64,000 nt of DNA from Aliarcobacter sp. (GCA_028690445.1 JAQVBE010000012.1:1-64000); one strand, 5' to 3'; positions 3,104 to 51,070 are shown, counted from the first letter of the stretch. Numbers and translations are program-made. The notes: generated by a model not told the origin, from the sequence alone.

Positions 3104-3601
3104 TTATAAAATATCTTCTTTTATATTTTGAACCCAATCTTGAATTCTTTTATCTGTTAATTCACTTTGATTATCTTCATCAATAACTAATCCAACGAAA
3201 TTATTGTCAATTTGAGCTTTTGAAGCATCATGATGATAACCTTCTATTGAAGTAAATCCAATAACTTTGGCTCCTAATGCAACTACTTGTTTGTATATTT
3301 CACCTAAAGCACTACAAAATTCATCACTATAACTTTCTTGATCTCCTAAACCAAAAAGAGCAATAGTTTTATTCGATAAATCTAATTTACAAAAATCTAC
3401 CCAAGCATCTTCCCAATCATCATTTAATTCTCCATCTCCCCATGTAGAACCACCTAAAATAACTTTATCATATCCATTGATTTTATCAACTTTTGTATTT
3501 GCTAAATTAAATACTTCTATTTCTCCCAATGCTGCTGAAATTTTACTTGCTACTTCATCAGAATTTCCTGTGCTACTTGCATAAAATATTGCTGTTGACA
3601 T
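3104..3601 (-). CDS. fldA: Flavodoxin (long-chain type)
   Basis: Flavodoxin carries electrons on FMN and often replaces ferredoxin when iron is scarce. The phosphate-binding loop of the FMN site is YASSTGNSDEVA at residues 7-18. The flavin-stacking regions are GGSTWGDGELNDDWED and GLGDQESYSDEF, the second matching the long-chain class. The 165-aa length is typical. It is the last gene of a (-) operon that begins at the microprotein near 4.79 kb and has a Fur-like box upstream, which fits iron-starvation expression. Function is firm; the symbol follows the common family name. Confidence 0.93.
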   Translation of the reverse strand: MSTAIFYASSTGNSDEVASKISAALGEIEVFNLANTKVDKINGYDKVILGGSTWGDGELNDDWEDAWVDFCKLDLSNKTIALFGLGDQESYSDEFCSALGEIYKQVVALGAKVIGFTSIEGYHHDASKAQIDNNFVGLVIDEDNQSELTDKRIQDWVQNIKEDIL

Positions 3602-3621
3602 TTTATTCTCCTAATTGTTTT

Positions 3622-4383
3622 TTATTTTTTTATAATAGAGCGAAAAGAGTAAGGAATTGCTTTAATTTGATACTCTTTATTTTTTAGTTCATCTACAAAA
3701 ACAGGAATTTGTTTAGTAAACTCACTATTTTTTGGATAAGCTAAATATATTTGAAAATATTCACCTTTTTTTATTGATTTGATTGCATCTTCTAATTCAT
3801 CTTTGATATTTGGCTTTTTAACTTCTATATCTTTCCATGATGTATATATTTTTAATCCTATAAAATCTTTTGATTTTATACAAATTGAATCACCCAAATC
3901 TATAACTATTTTATCCCTATGAAGTTTTTTTATTTTTTTTAAAACAAATTCATGAAATAGTAAATGTTTATCAATAAGTAGTTGCATTTTATTATTTATA
4001 AAACACTGTGATATAAGTTTTGCAACAGGAAGTAAATTTTTATTTGAAATTAATAAAAGATTTTTATTATTTGGATTTAAATAATTATTAATAATTTTTG
4101 TTGAATGTACACATAATTTGAAATTATATAGATTTTGTTTTTTAGGTACTTTGACAAAATTAAAAGGCATTAGATTTGCTATTTTATTAGAAAATGCATC
4201 TTTCAAAGAGTATTTTGCAAATTTTACTTGTTCATATTTTGTAAAATTACAAGTACATTTAAGAATATTATTACTTAAACTTAAAAATAGTTGTCGTAAT
4301 CTAATGACAGAATTAAATTCGTCAAAATCCTTTGGCAAATACTCTTTTGTTTCATAAAAACCTATGAAGTTATTGCTTAACAT
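3622..4383 (-). CDS. Uncharacterised protein in Fur-linked flavodoxin operon
   Basis: I do not recognise this 253-aa protein. I place the start at the ATG at 4383, because it overlaps the stop of the DUF2325 gene as TAATG and has an AGGAAA element upstream; a longer reading from 4422 would run into that gene. The protein is basic, with no clear membrane segment. It has a CTCNF motif near residue 43 and a lone Cys in the KLCVHSTK segment. The gene lies between the DUF2325 gene and flavodoxin, so a role in iron limitation or iron-sulfur stress is plausible but inferred only from the operon. Confidence 0.75.
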   Translation of the reverse strand: MLSNNFIGFYETKEYLPKDFDEFNSVIRLRQLFLSLSNNILKCTCNFTKYEQVKFAKYSLKDAFSNKIANLMPFNFVKVPKKQNLYNFKLCVHSTKIINNYLNPNNKNLLLISNKNLLPVAKLISQCFINNKMQLLIDKHLLFHEFVLKKIKKLHRDKIVIDLGDSICIKSKDFIGLKIYTSWKDIEVKKPNIKDELEDAIKSIKKGEYFQIYLAYPKNSEFTKQIPVFVDELKNKEYQIKAIPYSFRSIIKK

Positions 4384-4712
4384 TACAAGTTTCCTGTACA
4401 GTTTGCATAACAATTTGAACAATCTTTTATGCCCATTATTTTTACATATTCTTCATATACGCAAGAAATAGATCTTTTAGTACAGATAAACGGGATATTT
4501 TTCTTTTTTGCTTCATTTTTATATTTAAGCATTGTATTATGATTTAAAAATGACGTAATCATTAAAATACAATCAGTATCTTGTGGAACTTTTTTCTTTG
4601 GAGCAGAAGATTTTTTTCTTGCATCCCAATGATTTATAGTTTTTGCGCCCAAACTTTCTAACATAGAAGATATTTGTGAAATTTGATCTCCACCAATTAT
4701 TAATATACTCAT
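4383..4712 (-). CDS. DUF2325 domain protein
   Basis: This 109-aa protein starts MSILIIGGDQ, a Rossmann-like beta strand and glycine turn typical of DUF2325 proteins, followed by HWDARKK and CILMITSFLNHNTM. Its C-terminal third is rich in Cys (CTKRSISC and DCSNCYANC), suggesting metal or redox chemistry. I chose the ATG at 4712, which has AAGGG upstream, over a longer reading from 4739 that overlaps the preceding microprotein. It couples by stop/start overlap to the next gene. The function of the family is not established. Confidence 0.8.
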   Translation of the reverse strand: MSILIIGGDQISQISSMLESLGAKTINHWDARKKSSAPKKKVPQDTDCILMITSFLNHNTMLKYKNEAKKKNIPFICTKRSISCVYEEYVKIMGIKDCSNCYANCTGNL

Positions 4713-4726
4713 TTTAAACCCTTTTT

Positions 4727-4792
4727 TTAACAAGTACAACCGGTTGGTTTTACTAAGTCATTTTTATTTTTTGTTTCAAAACAATTATTCAT
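4727..4792 (-). CDS. 21-aa Cys-containing microprotein, first gene of the iron operon
   Basis: This short reading frame begins with ATG at 4792 behind an AAGGATTTGA ribosome-binding site. It encodes 21 residues starting MNNCFE and ending KPTGCTC, with three Cys, two of them in a CxC pair at the very C terminus. Its stop is 15 bp before the DUF2325 start, and the Fur-like box lies 12-32 bp upstream of its start, so it is the first cistron of the transcript. It could be a real metal-binding microprotein or a leader peptide. I know no family for it. Confidence 0.55.
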   Translation of the reverse strand: MNNCFETKNKNDLVKPTGCTC

Positions 4793-4803
4793 TTCAAATC
4801 CTT

Positions 4804-4824
4804 TATATTGATAATCATTATTGA
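4804..4824. promoter_or_regulatory. Fur box-like operator of the flavodoxin operon
   Basis: TTGATAATCATTATTGA (4808-4824) matches 14 of 16 positions of the inner part of the classical GATAATGATAATCATTATC Fur consensus. It sits just upstream of the microprotein start on the (-) strand, next to a TATTAT (-10-like) element at 4825-4830. Two more dyads lie further upstream: 4842-4860 (7-5-7) and 4863-4884 (AATTATCA/TGATAATT). Confidence 0.7.
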
Positions 4825-4952
4825 AATAATACATTAAGAAATCTTAATTTAATATTAAGAATAATTATCAAATTTGTGATAATTCAAATAAATTGGTTTT
4901 TTATGATTTTATGGATTGAATAAAGAATATAAATAAAAGGGAAAGAATGAAT

Positions 4953-46408: not shown

Positions 46409-46576
46409 ATGATGAGATTTGCTTTATTAATTATTCTTATAATTTTGTTTCAAGGATGCGCAACTTGGATGGGAATTAAAAAAGATAGTAACGATGCATG
46501 GAAAGTTACTAAAGATACTTCAGGAAAGGCTTATGATTCCACAAAAAAGGCTATTCATGAAGCAACAGAAGATTAA
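46409..46576 (+). CDS. Small lipoprotein at the head of the dlt operon
   Basis: A 55-aa frame starts at ATG 46409 (or the adjacent ATG at 46412) behind TTAGGAG. A hydrophobic segment ends in the lipobox LFQGC, with Cys17 as the probable lipidation site. The mature part is about 39 residues and charged (KKDSNDAWKVTKDTSGKA), similar in layout to entericidin-type lipoproteins. The dltC start is 38 bp downstream on the same strand, so it may be the first gene of the dlt operon. Confidence 0.7.
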   Translation: MMRFALLIILIILFQGCATWMGIKKDSNDAWKVTKDTSGKAYDSTKKAIHEATED

Positions 46577-46614
46577 TTTATATACTAAACTTTAAAAAAC
46601 AGTAAGGGGAAACA

Positions 46615-46848
46615 ATGGAAATAACAAAAAGAATAAAACCACTAGTGGAAGAAATTATATTTAAAGAAGTTGGAAATGATGACCCTTTATATACTTCAAA
46701 TTTAATTGATAGTATGGGAACAGTTGATTTAGCAATGATGCTAGAAGAAGAGTTTAGTATAAAAATCGATGTTAGAGATATTATTGAAAGTAATTTTGAT
46801 AGTATAAATAAATTAGCTACTTATATAAAGAGTAGGATAAGTGAATAA
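46615..46848 (+). CDS. dltC: D-alanyl carrier protein DltC-like
   Basis: This 77-aa acyl-carrier-type protein has the phosphopantetheine site S33 in LIDSMGTVDLAMMLEEEF and a strong AAGGGG ribosome-binding site. In dlt systems DltA loads D-Ala onto it and DltB passes it on. It overlaps dltD by 8 bp. The four dlt partners downstream support DltC over a fatty-acid ACP. Confidence 0.9.
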   Translation: MEITKRIKPLVEEIIFKEVGNDDPLYTSNLIDSMGTVDLAMMLEEEFSIKIDVRDIIESNFDSINKLATYIKSRISE

Positions 46849-47977
46849 ATTTTTTGTAAATATTTATGCTTTTTTTATTGCATTAGTAGTGGTTATATCA
46901 TTACTTTATGTTAGTAAAAATCAAATTTTAAATTATTATGCAATTCCTTTACAAGATTCACTACAAAGAACTACTAGCCTACAAGATGACTTAGAAAGTG
47001 GTAAGATTATAGTTTTTGGTTCTTCTGAGTTAGTAATGTATCCAGACTTGAAGTTTTTACCTCAAAATTATTTTAATAATGAATTAAAATTACCATTAAG
47101 AGTTCAAGGAAATGAAGGGCAACAAGATTTTGTAATAATGTCTCAATTAGCAGCCTGTGATAATGAAAAGGTAAGAGAAAATGCAAGAGTAGTAGTTCTT
47201 TTATCTCCTAGTTGGTTTAGTGGTTCTAGTGATAATGGCTTAACTATGCCTAAATTTTTGGAGTATATGTATCCAGGAATGATGAATAAGCTTTATTTTC
47301 AAAGTGAAGCGGATGATAAATATAAAATTTTTGTTAGTGACTATATTAAAAATAATATCACTTATATAAAAAATCCAAATTTTCTGTATGAATATTCTTA
47401 TGCTGTAGTAAAAAAGAATTATTTTAATGATACGATTAGAAAAATAATAATCGAAAGTTTTGATAATAAAGATCCAGATCCAGAACTTATCAAATATAAA
47501 AAACCAATACTTAATTATGATAATTTAAAAGTAGAAGCGGTTAATAATACAGCTCCTGTTACGAATAATAGTTATGGAATTAATGATGAATATTTCACAA
47601 AATATATTCAACCAGAAATTGATAAAAATAATTTTCCTTTTGGTATTTCTATTCCTGAATTAAGTGAAAATGAAGAGTATCATGATTTATTAGTTTTACT
47701 TGATTTTTTAAAAGATTATAAAATTAAACCTTTATTTGTAATGCAGGATTTACATCCTTATGCTTTTTCAAATAATAGAGAAGAAATGAATAAACTTATG
47801 TTATTAATAAAATCAAAAGTTGAAGGATATGGTTATAAATATTTTGATAAATGGACATATAAAAAAGAAGATTATAAAATAGGGGCTTTAACTGATATTG
47901 TACATCCAGGTGAATTGGGTTGGGTTGATATTAATCAGAAAATTATTGAGCATTTTATGACAAAAGAGGAAAAATAA
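46841..47977 (+). CDS. dltD: DltD-like D-alanyl transfer protein
   Basis: The 378-aa protein has one N-terminal membrane anchor (about 7-25) and a periplasmic SGNH-like domain. The probable nucleophile is S61 or S62 in VFGSSEL, with the Asp-His pair in DIVHPGELGW near the C terminus. In Gram-positives DltD finishes D-Ala transfer to teichoic acid; here the acceptor is unknown. It sits between dltC and the dltX-like gene. Confidence 0.9.
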   Translation: MNKFFVNIYAFFIALVVVISLLYVSKNQILNYYAIPLQDSLQRTTSLQDDLESGKIIVFGSSELVMYPDLKFLPQNYFNNELKLPLRVQGNEGQQDFVIMSQLAACDNEKVRENARVVVLLSPSWFSGSSDNGLTMPKFLEYMYPGMMNKLYFQSEADDKYKIFVSDYIKNNITYIKNPNFLYEYSYAVVKKNYFNDTIRKIIIESFDNKDPDPELIKYKKPILNYDNLKVEAVNNTAPVTNNSYGINDEYFTKYIQPEIDKNNFPFGISIPELSENEEYHDLLVLLDFLKDYKIKPLFVMQDLHPYAFSNNREEMNKLMLLIKSKVEGYGYKYFDKWTYKKEDYKIGALTDIVHPGELGWVDINQKIIEHFMTKEEK

Positions 47978-47978
47978 G

Positions 47979-48119
47979 ATGAATTATTTTTTTAGAACTT
48001 TTGTAATATATTTACTATTGATTATAGGCTTTTCATTCATTATAATAGATCAAAATATTGATGATTTAAGTGGACAAGATGTTGAATCAACTGTAGAATT
48101 TGTGTACGAGGCTTTTTAA
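47979..48119 (+). CDS. dltX: DltX-like small membrane protein
   Basis: This 46-aa gene lies between dltD and dltB. It starts with ATG at 47979 behind GAGGAAAA and its stop overlaps the dltB start as TAATG. One membrane helix (about residues 6-23) is followed by a short polar tail ending FVYEAF. This matches the FxYxxF C-terminal motif of Gram-positive DltX (for example FIYNEF), whose Tyr is reported to carry D-Ala between DltB and DltD. Position, size, topology and motif all agree. Confidence 0.85.
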   Translation: MNYFFRTFVIYLLLIIGFSFIIIDQNIDDLSGQDVESTVEFVYEAF

Positions 48120-49255
48120 TGTATCATATATTACCATTTTCAGGACTTTATTTTTTTATTATAATTTTTGGTTTTATTATATTTTTACATTTATTTAAAA
48201 ATATTTTAAATAAAATTATTTCATTTAAAATGATATTGTTTATAGCAATTATAATATATACTTATTTTTGTATTCCACATTCAGAAAAAATTCTATTTTT
48301 TCTGACTTATGTTTATGGTGTGTATTGGATTTATATAAAAAATAAATATCAAAGTACATTGCTTCCTATGATAATTATTGCTTTACCTATGATTCTTCAT
48401 AAGTTTGATATAAACCCTATTTTTAAAGTTATTGGTATTTCGTATATTACATTTAGAACTATTCAAGCAATGGTAGATAGCCATAATTATGGAAAATTAT
48501 CTTTTATTGAATTTACTTCATTTTTATTATTTCCAACAACACTTTTAGCTGGTCCAATTGATAGATCATATAGATTTCAAGAAGATTTACAAAAAGGCTA
48601 TGAAAATTTAACTTTTACTAATATTGGAAAAGGCTGGGATATTTTATTAGTTGGTGTGTTGTTTAAATTTATTTTTGCAGAATGTGTAAATAAATTTTGG
48701 CTTATACCTATTGATGAAAATAGTGTGCATCTTTTAGATATGATGAATAGTGCATATTCTTATACAACTTATCTTTTCTTTGATTTTGCGGGATATAGTG
48801 CAATGGCTGTTGGTTTGAGTATTATGATGGGAATAACAGTTCCTATGAATTTTAATCATCCATATTTAGCTCCTAATCCACAAGATTTTTGGAGAAGATT
48901 TCATATTACTTTGGGTTCTTGGCTAACAGATTATTTCTTTAAACCTTTATACAAATATTTACATAACTTTAATATTTTAAAAGGGAAAAGATTACTAATT
49001 CAAAATTTAGCGATAATAGCCACTTTTTTACTTATGGGAATGTGGAATGGGTTTACTTGGTATTTTATATTTAGTGGATTTTTATTTGGTATTTATTCAG
49101 CAATTCATAACATATATGTAGTTTATGTCAAAAAAGGTGGATATGATTATTTTACGATTTTCCCGGATATTATATCTTTAAATTTAAAACGATTTTTGAT
49201 GATAAACGGTGCAGTTTTAGCACTTTATTTTTTTAGTGGGAGAGTTCCTATATGA
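48119..49255 (+). CDS. dltB: DltB-like MBOAT acyltransferase
   Basis: The 378-aa MBOAT protein has about ten hydrophobic segments and the conserved FWRRFHITLGSWLTDYFFKPLY block. It should take D-Ala from DltC across the membrane. The MBOAT motif usually written GxWHG reads MGMWNGFTW here, so the usually invariant His is Asn (codon AAT). The earlier His of RRFHITL is kept. Start and stop overlap its neighbours dltX and dltA, showing tight coupling. Confidence 0.88.
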   Translation: MYHILPFSGLYFFIIIFGFIIFLHLFKNILNKIISFKMILFIAIIIYTYFCIPHSEKILFFLTYVYGVYWIYIKNKYQSTLLPMIIIALPMILHKFDINPIFKVIGISYITFRTIQAMVDSHNYGKLSFIEFTSFLLFPTTLLAGPIDRSYRFQEDLQKGYENLTFTNIGKGWDILLVGVLFKFIFAECVNKFWLIPIDENSVHLLDMMNSAYSYTTYLFFDFAGYSAMAVGLSIMMGITVPMNFNHPYLAPNPQDFWRRFHITLGSWLTDYFFKPLYKYLHNFNILKGKRLLIQNLAIIATFLLMGMWNGFTWYFIFSGFLFGIYSAIHNIYVVYVKKGGYDYFTIFPDIISLNLKRFLMINGAVLALYFFSGRVPI

Positions 49256-50688
49256 GATTTGATTTAGAATTATTAGAGTTTGTTGAGTGTAACAAAGATT
49301 CGCAAAAAGTGGCTATTAGTGCAAGTGACAAAGATTTAACTTGGAATGAATTTAAAGATGAAGTTGAGAAACTTAAACTTGAAATTTCAAAATATAATCT
49401 TCCAAAAGGGCATCCCGTAGTTATTTATGGGCACAAAGAAGCTAGTTTTATTGTAAGTATGACAGCTTGCATGAGTTTGGGATTACCATATATCCCTGTT
49501 GATACTATTTATCCAAAAGAAAGACTTAATAAAATTGTGAATATATTAAGTTCGGCTCTTATAATTTATACTATTGAAAACAAGATGGAAGTTAATACAA
49601 ATAATATAAATACAAGTTACCATTTAGATGATTCAATAATTTATATTATATTTACGTCAGGAAGTACAGGTGAACCAAAAGGTGTTCAAATTACTAAAAA
49701 TTCAATATTAGATTTTAAAGATTGGCTAGAAACAGATTTTAAATTTAATGATAATTCAATTTTTATGAATCAAGCACCTTTTAGTTTTGATTTATCAGTA
49801 TATGAAGTAATTGGATTTTTATTATTTGGAGGAACTATTATTTTAAATAGTAGAGAATTATTAGAAAATCACCTTGAATATTTTGAGAGATTGAAAAAAT
49901 ATAATTGTAATACTTGGGTTTCAACACCTTCTTTTATTAGTAAATATTTACTTTCTTCTGAATTTGTTAGTAGTAATATCGAAACATTAAATAGCTTTTT
50001 ATTTTGTGGAGAAGTTTTGCCCTCAGCTACAGTAAAAAGAATAAAAAATAATTTTCCTGATTCTAAAGTTTTTAATACTTATGGTCCAACAGAAGCTACA
50101 GTTGCTACAACTTTGATAGAAATCACTTCTGAAATAATTGATAAATATTCAAAAAGTTTACCAGTTGGATATGTAAAGAAAAATACAATAATAAATTTAT
50201 TAGATAGAGATAGTGAAAATGTTGGAGAAATAGAAATAGTTGGAGATAATGTTTCTATTGGATATTTCAAAAATGAAGAGTTAAATGCTCAAAAATTTGA
50301 ACCAAAATATGAAAAAAGAAGTTTTAGAACAGGTGATTTCGGATATTTTGAAGATAATATGTTGTTTTTTGCAAATAGAAAAGATGAACTTATAAAACTT
50401 CATGGATTTAGAATTGAACTTGGAGAAATTGATAAAGAGTTTACTAATAATAAAGAAGTAGTGGATGCTATTACAATTCCTTTAAAAAGAGGAACAGAAG
50501 TTATAAAATTAATTACTTTTATTATTTTAAATAAAGATATTAATATTAATACTTTAAAAGATGAAATATCAGCTGTACTTCCATATTATATGGTACCTTC
50601 TGACATAGTAAAACTAGAAAAGTTCCCATATAATTCAAATCATAAAATTGATAAAAATGAATTAATTAATATATATAAAAGTCTATAA
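49252..50688 (+). CDS. dltA: D-alanine--carrier protein ligase DltA
   Basis: The 478-aa adenylate-forming enzyme activates D-Ala with ATP and loads DltC. Motifs in order are IIFTSGSTGEPKGVQIT, the NTYGPTEATVA segment, RTGDFG, and RKDELIKLHGFRIELGEI, with the catalytic Lys near the end (NSNHKIDKNEL). Its length is close to known DltA proteins. It overlaps dltB by 4 bp and is followed after 13 bp by a small gene of unknown role. Confidence 0.92.
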   Translation: MRFDLELLEFVECNKDSQKVAISASDKDLTWNEFKDEVEKLKLEISKYNLPKGHPVVIYGHKEASFIVSMTACMSLGLPYIPVDTIYPKERLNKIVNILSSALIIYTIENKMEVNTNNINTSYHLDDSIIYIIFTSGSTGEPKGVQITKNSILDFKDWLETDFKFNDNSIFMNQAPFSFDLSVYEVIGFLLFGGTIILNSRELLENHLEYFERLKKYNCNTWVSTPSFISKYLLSSEFVSSNIETLNSFLFCGEVLPSATVKRIKNNFPDSKVFNTYGPTEATVATTLIEITSEIIDKYSKSLPVGYVKKNTIINLLDRDSENVGEIEIVGDNVSIGYFKNEELNAQKFEPKYEKRSFRTGDFGYFEDNMLFFANRKDELIKLHGFRIELGEIDKEFTNNKEVVDAITIPLKRGTEVIKLITFIILNKDININTLKDEISAVLPYYMVPSDIVKLEKFPYNSNHKIDKNELINIYKSL

Positions 50689-50701
50689 AAAAGGATTACT
50701 C

Positions 50702-51070
50702 GTGAGAAAAGTTGTATTAAAACCTAAAGAAATAAGAAAGTTTGGCTTATATTGTCCTTTTACAAATGAAAAATTAGATAATGAAGATAATTCTTTTGAA
50801 ATATATGAAGGTGCAGGAAAGTATTTATTTTCATTATGTGAAGATTGTTTGTTTTATGATGTTGGGAATAATGATGAGCTTGAAAAAAACTGGGAAAATT
50901 CTGCAAGTGAAACAGTTGAAAAATTTGTTGAAAGTTATCCAGATAAAAATATTTTGATAATTGAGGTATTAATCGCTAGTGAAAGTTATTTTTATGGATT
51001 TTTAAATGAAGACAATATTGAATTAAGTGATGAAGAAATTGAAAAAAGATTTATTAAAGAGAATAAATAA
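50702..51070 (+). CDS. Hypothetical protein at the end of the dlt operon
   Basis: This 122-aa soluble acidic protein starts at GTG (50702) behind AAGGA. It has CPFTNEKL near residue 18 and CEDCLFYD near 47, a C...CxxC arrangement that may bind zinc. The gene follows dltA by 13 bp, so it is probably cotranscribed, but I do not recognise a family and no D-alanylation role is shown. Confidence 0.7.
   Translation: MRKVVLKPKEIRKFGLYCPFTNEKLDNEDNSFEIYEGAGKYLFSLCEDCLFYDVGNNDELEKNWENSASETVEKFVESYPDKNILIIEVLIASESYFYGFLNEDNIELSDEEIEKRFIKENK

Follow-up and report, generated by a model that had tools for sequence, protein, structure and literature searches.

The closest described relatives of the locus presented here include the dltXABCD operons of the Bacillota (Listeria, Staphylococcus, Bacillus). 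These share with it DltA, DltB, DltC, DltD and DltX, the FxYxxF tail, the DltD triad and the DltB fold, but their genes run X-A-B-C-D instead of C-D-X-B-A, their DltX proteins stay within a Pfam model past which ours has diverged, and their DltB active site is His-His-Tyr where ours is His-Asn-Ser. Teichoic acids are not expected in a Gram-negative bacterium. Pandin 2016 is said to have already written the operon of soft-rot bacteria as dltDXBAC, which makes the occurrence of dltX in a Gram-negative bacterium no novelty in itself. The PatAB system of peptidoglycan O-acetylation also combines an MBOAT, an SGNH protein and an acyl-tyrosine shuttle in an FxYxxF motif, but differs in that the motif is fused to the MBOAT, acetyl-CoA is the donor and the essential His315 is present. 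That DltX and PatA work by an acyl-tyrosine shuttle is established (PMC12148441). In DltB, residue H336 has been called invariant and shares the active site with H289 and Y345, while in other MBOATs a histidine at position 336 is paired with Asn or Asp at position 289 (PMC11035591). This histidine is described as a general base in MBOATs (PMC8316800), it is required in Gram-positive DltB, and PatA auto-acetylation requires its equivalent (PMC12148441). The sole exception named up to 2016 is HHATL, which has Leu at that position and is doubted as an enzyme (PMC5831804).

Dlt systems with a non-teichoic acceptor have also been reported from Gram-negative bacteria. Antimicrobial-peptide resistance is ascribed to the dlt genes of Dickeya (PMC3544676; Pandin 2016 as cited in PMC5541007) and to the dra locus of Bordetella (Taneja 2013 as cited in PMC9410548); the latter, compared here by description alone, adds D-alanine to an outer-membrane component (as cited in PMC9410548). 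The original prediction for our locus, which proposed a new use of the Dlt system, was therefore anticipated in this respect, and what appears to be new is a His-to-Asn change in DltB. The dlt operons of Dickeya, Pectobacterium and Photorhabdus resemble ours in that their DltBs fall in a common clade with this Asn, and in having a DltX-type gene between dltD and dltB, with tails that read FEYQKF/FEYQQF or YEYQQF; dltC is last in Dickeya and Pectobacterium and first in Photorhabdus, as in our locus, and Dickeya and Pectobacterium DltA have Ile at the Cys269 position. The dlt operons in Bacteroidota metagenome-assembled genomes (MAGs) share the order C-D-X-B-A, have DltX tails reading FVYQQF/FIYQQF and encode the closest DltBs outside the genus (40-48% identity); to our knowledge, no function has been described for them.

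The dlt locus and its DltX-type microprotein

The window, a 64,000-nucleotide stretch of Aliarcobacter sp. DNA (GCA_028690445.1 JAQVBE010000012.1:1-64000), encodes DltA, DltB, DltC and DltD together, as expected of a Dlt system, with the genes dltC-dltD-dltX-dltB-dltA spanning 46615-50688 on the plus strand. Among named genomes, those with the most similar DltBs are an Aliarcobacter MAG (98% identical) and Arcobacter caeni (96%). All seven genes that had been predicted are in place, from a lipoprotein gene upstream (46409-46576) to a Cys protein gene downstream (50702-51070), both on the strand of the operon.

The dltX equivalent (47979-48119, plus strand) encodes 46 amino acids with one membrane helix and the tail FVYEAF, in which Tyr43 is the putative shuttle residue. 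As predicted, it has a ribosome-binding site of its own, the Shine-Dalgarno-like AGAGGA (47965-47970, plus strand) located 8 bases 5′ of the ATG, and overlaps dltB, by a single base (TAATG). Relatives have an AGGA/AAGG-type sequence at a similar distance before dltX. In Aliarcobacter, TTG is the start codon of roughly every second dltX copy, which lets gene callers miss these copies easily.

Within the family, the 46-aa gene was found in 19 of 104 genomes searched, all of one genus. These carriers coincide with the 20 genomes that have a true dltB, as in the twentieth the contig stops inside dltX with the tail still visible; the gene is hence present in 19/19 Aliarcobacter genomes whose DNA covers the site. 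Every copy in the genus lies between dltD and dltB and ends in FVYEAF or FVYEEF, and a pooled pN/pS of 0.16 (pS 0.29, pN 0.05) shows that substitutions are mostly synonymous, indicating purifying selection. Presence in 19 genomes, mostly synonymous substitutions and a tail kept in each copy together argue that the open reading frame is coding.

Beyond the genus, a DltB alignment scan with one genome per species gave 80 named loci, from Aliarcobacter, Bacteroidota, a Chlorobiota MAG, a Bdellovibrionales MAG, Photorhabdus and many Enterobacterales, which a Klebsiella plasmid locus brings to 81. Four of these could not be assessed because a contig end cuts off the DNA upstream of dltB. In the others, which cover Campylobacterota, Bacteroidota, Chlorobiota, Bdellovibrionota and Enterobacterales, dltD and dltB always have a short ORF ending in [FY]xYxxF directly between them (77/77). 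Such a tail is not a product of chance, since among 14,393 short ORFs in the 81 loci 79 end this way and only five of them lie outside the dltD-dltB slot. Both the Gram-positive-like tail and the conserved gene position in related genomes, as well as the more general proposal of a dlt operon with dltX in a Gram-negative bacterium, are thereby borne out: full Dlt pathway genes occur with a DltX-type microprotein whose tail and position are conserved across Gram-negative phyla.

The search against DltX profiles that the original prediction had called for went the other way. PF12459, the Pfam DltX family, does not match the window protein at E values up to 1, nor three of its Gram-negative relatives at E values up to 10, while matching three Gram-positive DltX controls at 1e-14 to 1e-16. 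NCBIfam gave no useful match to the 46-aa protein, and is uninformative here as it missed two Gram-positive DltX controls too; nothing useful matched in the PDB, and BLASTP of one Gram-positive DltX against one from Bacteroidota returned no real similarity. Size, single helix and tail are nevertheless those of Gram-positive DltX, and the protein has what identifies a functional equivalent, namely a length of about 40-50 amino acids, one membrane helix, a C-terminal FxYxxF and a gene encoded with the dlt genes. We therefore name it a DltX equivalent and not a member of PF12459. Judged by tail, size, single helix and gene position, its identification as a DltX-like shuttle is well supported. Gram-negative DltX-type genes slip past the Pfam model; they appear in annotations as hypothetical proteins or can be overlooked.

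An asparagine in place of the invariant DltB histidine

dltB (48119-49255, plus strand) encodes an MBOAT D-alanyltransferase that matches PF03062 (MBOAT) at E=5e-13 and the DltB model TIGR04091 at E=4e-65, the latter under its curated cut-off. Its AlphaFold model (mean pLDDT 90) has the MBOAT fold, with the DltB structure 8jem as the best match (Z 40.4, rmsd 2.7 Å, 371 residues aligned) and PORCN behind it at Z 28. The Gram-negative sequences group in the DltB tree as a single clade (support 97/97) adjoining Gram-positive DltB, and both together are set apart from other MBOATs (100/100).

Aligned to Streptococcus thermophilus DltB (6bug), the window protein reads MGMWNG for MGFWHG, and the replaced residue is H336. 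The window DltB thus lacks the invariant transmembrane-helix histidine of DltB and other MBOATs, and has Asn310 instead (AAT codon at 49046-49048, plus strand). In an alignment of 105 sequences, Asn occupies this position in 87/87 distinct Gram-negative DltBs, a sample made up of sequences with at least one of two search patterns (PQDFWRRF and PMNFNHP, neither of which covers Asn310 or Ser319) and exclusive of Bordetella DltB; His occupies it in 6/6 Gram-positive DltBs and 12/12 PatA/AlgI-type MBOATs. Both AAT and AAC codons are seen at the Asn310 position. The second active-site residue, at the H289 position, is His in all 105 sequences (His262 in the window). The Y345 position is Ser throughout the 87 Gram-negative DltBs (Ser319 in the window), and the H349 position is Phe in 84 of them. 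A W288-to-Phe site lies within the pattern PQDFWRRF, and retrieving loci with this pattern biases the conservation seen there.

Among the sampled sequences, the His-to-Asn change is limited to the Gram-negative clade, and we regard this as firm. Misalignment was ruled out as its cause, since no gaps are needed to align MGxW[H/N]G and the fold is in agreement. His330, present in 86 of the 87 Gram-negative DltBs, was considered and rejected as a compensating histidine: PatA/AlgI-type MBOATs have it too, beside their catalytic histidine. The missing catalytic histidine had gone unnoticed in the original prediction and is the most unusual feature of the locus; a literature search, with most subscription papers outside its reach, found no report of the change. 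MBOATs such as PORCN, ACAT1 and DGAT1 have the usual pair, Asn-His, which appears to have been swapped to His-Asn in Gram-negative DltB.

The replacement could be chemically unimportant in an otherwise ordinary Dlt system, with Asn310 giving the hydrogen bond of H336, the base unmoved and the change fixed by drift in one ancestor. The single clade, which allows for a single event, and the intact state of all partners fit such drift, yet the histidine is required in both Gram-positive DltB and PatA (PMC12148441) and is described as the general base of MBOATs (PMC8316800), and the co-occurrence of Asn in 87/87 sequences with Tyr345-to-Ser in 87/87 and His349-to-Phe in 84/87 looks coordinated. 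We consider this explanation possible, though rather doubtful. In Gram-positive DltB the m-AMSA site lies between H289, H336 and Y345, which suggests that Gram-negative DltB may respond differently to this compound.

Partner proteins and a proposed pathway

The proteins encoded around DltB keep their catalytic residues. DltC (46615-46848, plus strand) is a carrier protein with its phosphopantetheine site at Ser33 in LIDSMG (PF00550, E=6e-7; DltC model, E=7e-8), and the DS[IM] motif is kept in nearly all relatives that a simple pattern search could place. DltD (46841-47977, plus strand, GTG start) is a D-alanyl transferase of SGNH type (PF04914, E=4.8e-51) and has a single membrane helix at its N terminus. 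Its triad of Ser62, Asp352 and His355 is invariant in 31 Gram-negative DltDs and aligns with that of the solved DltDs 6o93 and 7dxm, and a structure search with its model returns DltD structures first. DltA (49252-50688, plus strand), a predicted D-alanine-activating ligase whose match to the DltA model (E=3.5e-128) is, like that of DltB, under the cut-off, has Cys252, Asp180 and Lys465 where Bacillus cereus DltA has C269, D197 and K492 (alignment to 3fcc), which we take to be the D-alanine recognition residues seen in DltA structures.

Cys fills the C269 position in Aliarcobacter, Photorhabdus and some Bacteroidota; Enterobacterales other than Photorhabdus have Ile there and the remaining Bacteroidota have Met, Ala, Leu or Ile. 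The activated amino acid may hence differ between lineages. For part of the clade, one could accordingly envisage transfer of an amino acid other than D-alanine, given the Ile, Met, Ala or Leu of most Enterobacterales and many Bacteroidota; Cys, Asp and Lys are however kept in the DltA of the window, Aliarcobacter and Photorhabdus, and we consider such a transfer unlikely. We are similarly skeptical that the DltBs in question serve as a membrane scaffold, catalytically dead or altered, with acyl transfer taking another route or involving another acyl group. HHATL, the only His-less MBOAT named in a review and one doubted as an enzyme (PMC5831804), offers a parallel for such a scaffold, but a conserved DltX tyrosine, DltD triad, DltC serine and DltA would then be useless, and the dltB mutant of Dickeya has a strong phenotype.

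As the partners' catalytic residues are intact, we read DltB as an active, rewired enzyme that uses His262 as base. The locus probably encodes a complete D-alanylation pathway with a rewired DltB active site. The genes and their order, their conservation, the triad and motif residues, the fold and, among the sequences sampled, the clade-limited His-to-Asn change are observed directly, whereas we infer that the enzymes are active, what His262 does, and what the acceptor and physiology would be. DltA would load DltC with D-alanine, and DltB would carry the D-alanyl group through the inner membrane onto the tail residue Tyr43 of the DltX-type protein, with His262 (equivalent to H289) most likely acting as the base that activates this tyrosine and Asn310 positioning the substrate. 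DltX would then pass the group to Ser62 of DltD, which would esterify a glycan of the periplasm or outer membrane, for instance LPS core or capsule, and the D-alanyl esters would lower the negative surface charge.

The dltB mutant of Dickeya is polymyxin-sensitive (PMC3544676), and in the tree Dickeya DltBs, sampled from members other than D. dadantii, the species with the mutant phenotype, fall in the Asn clade. By analogy, Asn-type DltB is thus probably functional. A dltD mutant of D. dadantii is described, in the passage citing it, as having wild-type resistance (Pandin 2016 as cited in PMC5541007), which fits poorly with a simple linear pathway. Whether a whole clade of working MBOATs has dispensed with the invariant histidine, moving the base to the H289 position (His262) and using a separate DltX-type tyrosine shuttle, we hold to be evenly balanced. 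A deeply conserved His-less MBOAT set beside intact DltX, DltD, DltC and DltA allows a direct test of which active-site histidine, of the two, serves as base in MBOAT-SGNH polymer acylation.

Genomic setting and distribution

The original prediction had counted the lipoprotein and the Cys protein among the parts of the system, and had named the lipoprotein as a possible D-alanine acceptor. Their positions hold and their membership does not. In the window, as in the three relatives nearest to it, both flank the operon on its strand, as system components might, but they are genus-wide (27/31 and 19/31 genomes, respectively), occur in genomes without dlt and lie away from dlt in some genomes that carry it. 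At the dlt-free site of relatives, moreover, the genes run metB-metC-lipoprotein-YkuD L,D-transpeptidase-Cys protein, so that both flank an L,D-transpeptidase gene there and adjacency to dlt gives the lipoprotein no candidacy as acceptor. Membership of the two proteins is thus largely refuted, and a lipoprotein acceptor is most improbable. By this comparison, dlt occupies the former place of the YkuD gene in the window lineage, by replacement or insertion.

DltD is present in 12 of 397 sampled Campylobacterota genomes, all of the window's genus, and within that phylum the operon therefore looks acquired by the genus. Across the named loci, the order C-D-X-B-A is found in Aliarcobacter, Bacteroidota, Bdellovibrionales and Photorhabdus, and D-X-B-A-C in Enterobacterales other than Photorhabdus. 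The dlt locus of Chryseobacterium sp. 18061 (CACSKA010000011.1) groups within the Enterobacterales, apart from Bacteroidota, reflecting either a recent transfer or a contaminant contig.

Plasmids carry dlt genes as well. Three Klebsiella/Enterobacter plasmids (NZ_CP041250, NZ_CP063883, NZ_CP071862), two of them typed as conjugative, share a near-identical dltD accompanied by a DltX-type gene, and NZ_CP041250 has a complete D-X-B-A-C operon amid IS elements; this operon has no near match among E. coli genomes. On the Ligilactobacillus murinus plasmid NZ_AP025729, a lone dltB (3462-4870), with no further dlt gene in the stretch read around it, follows a bactofencin A family bacteriocin gene, and may be an immunity gene.
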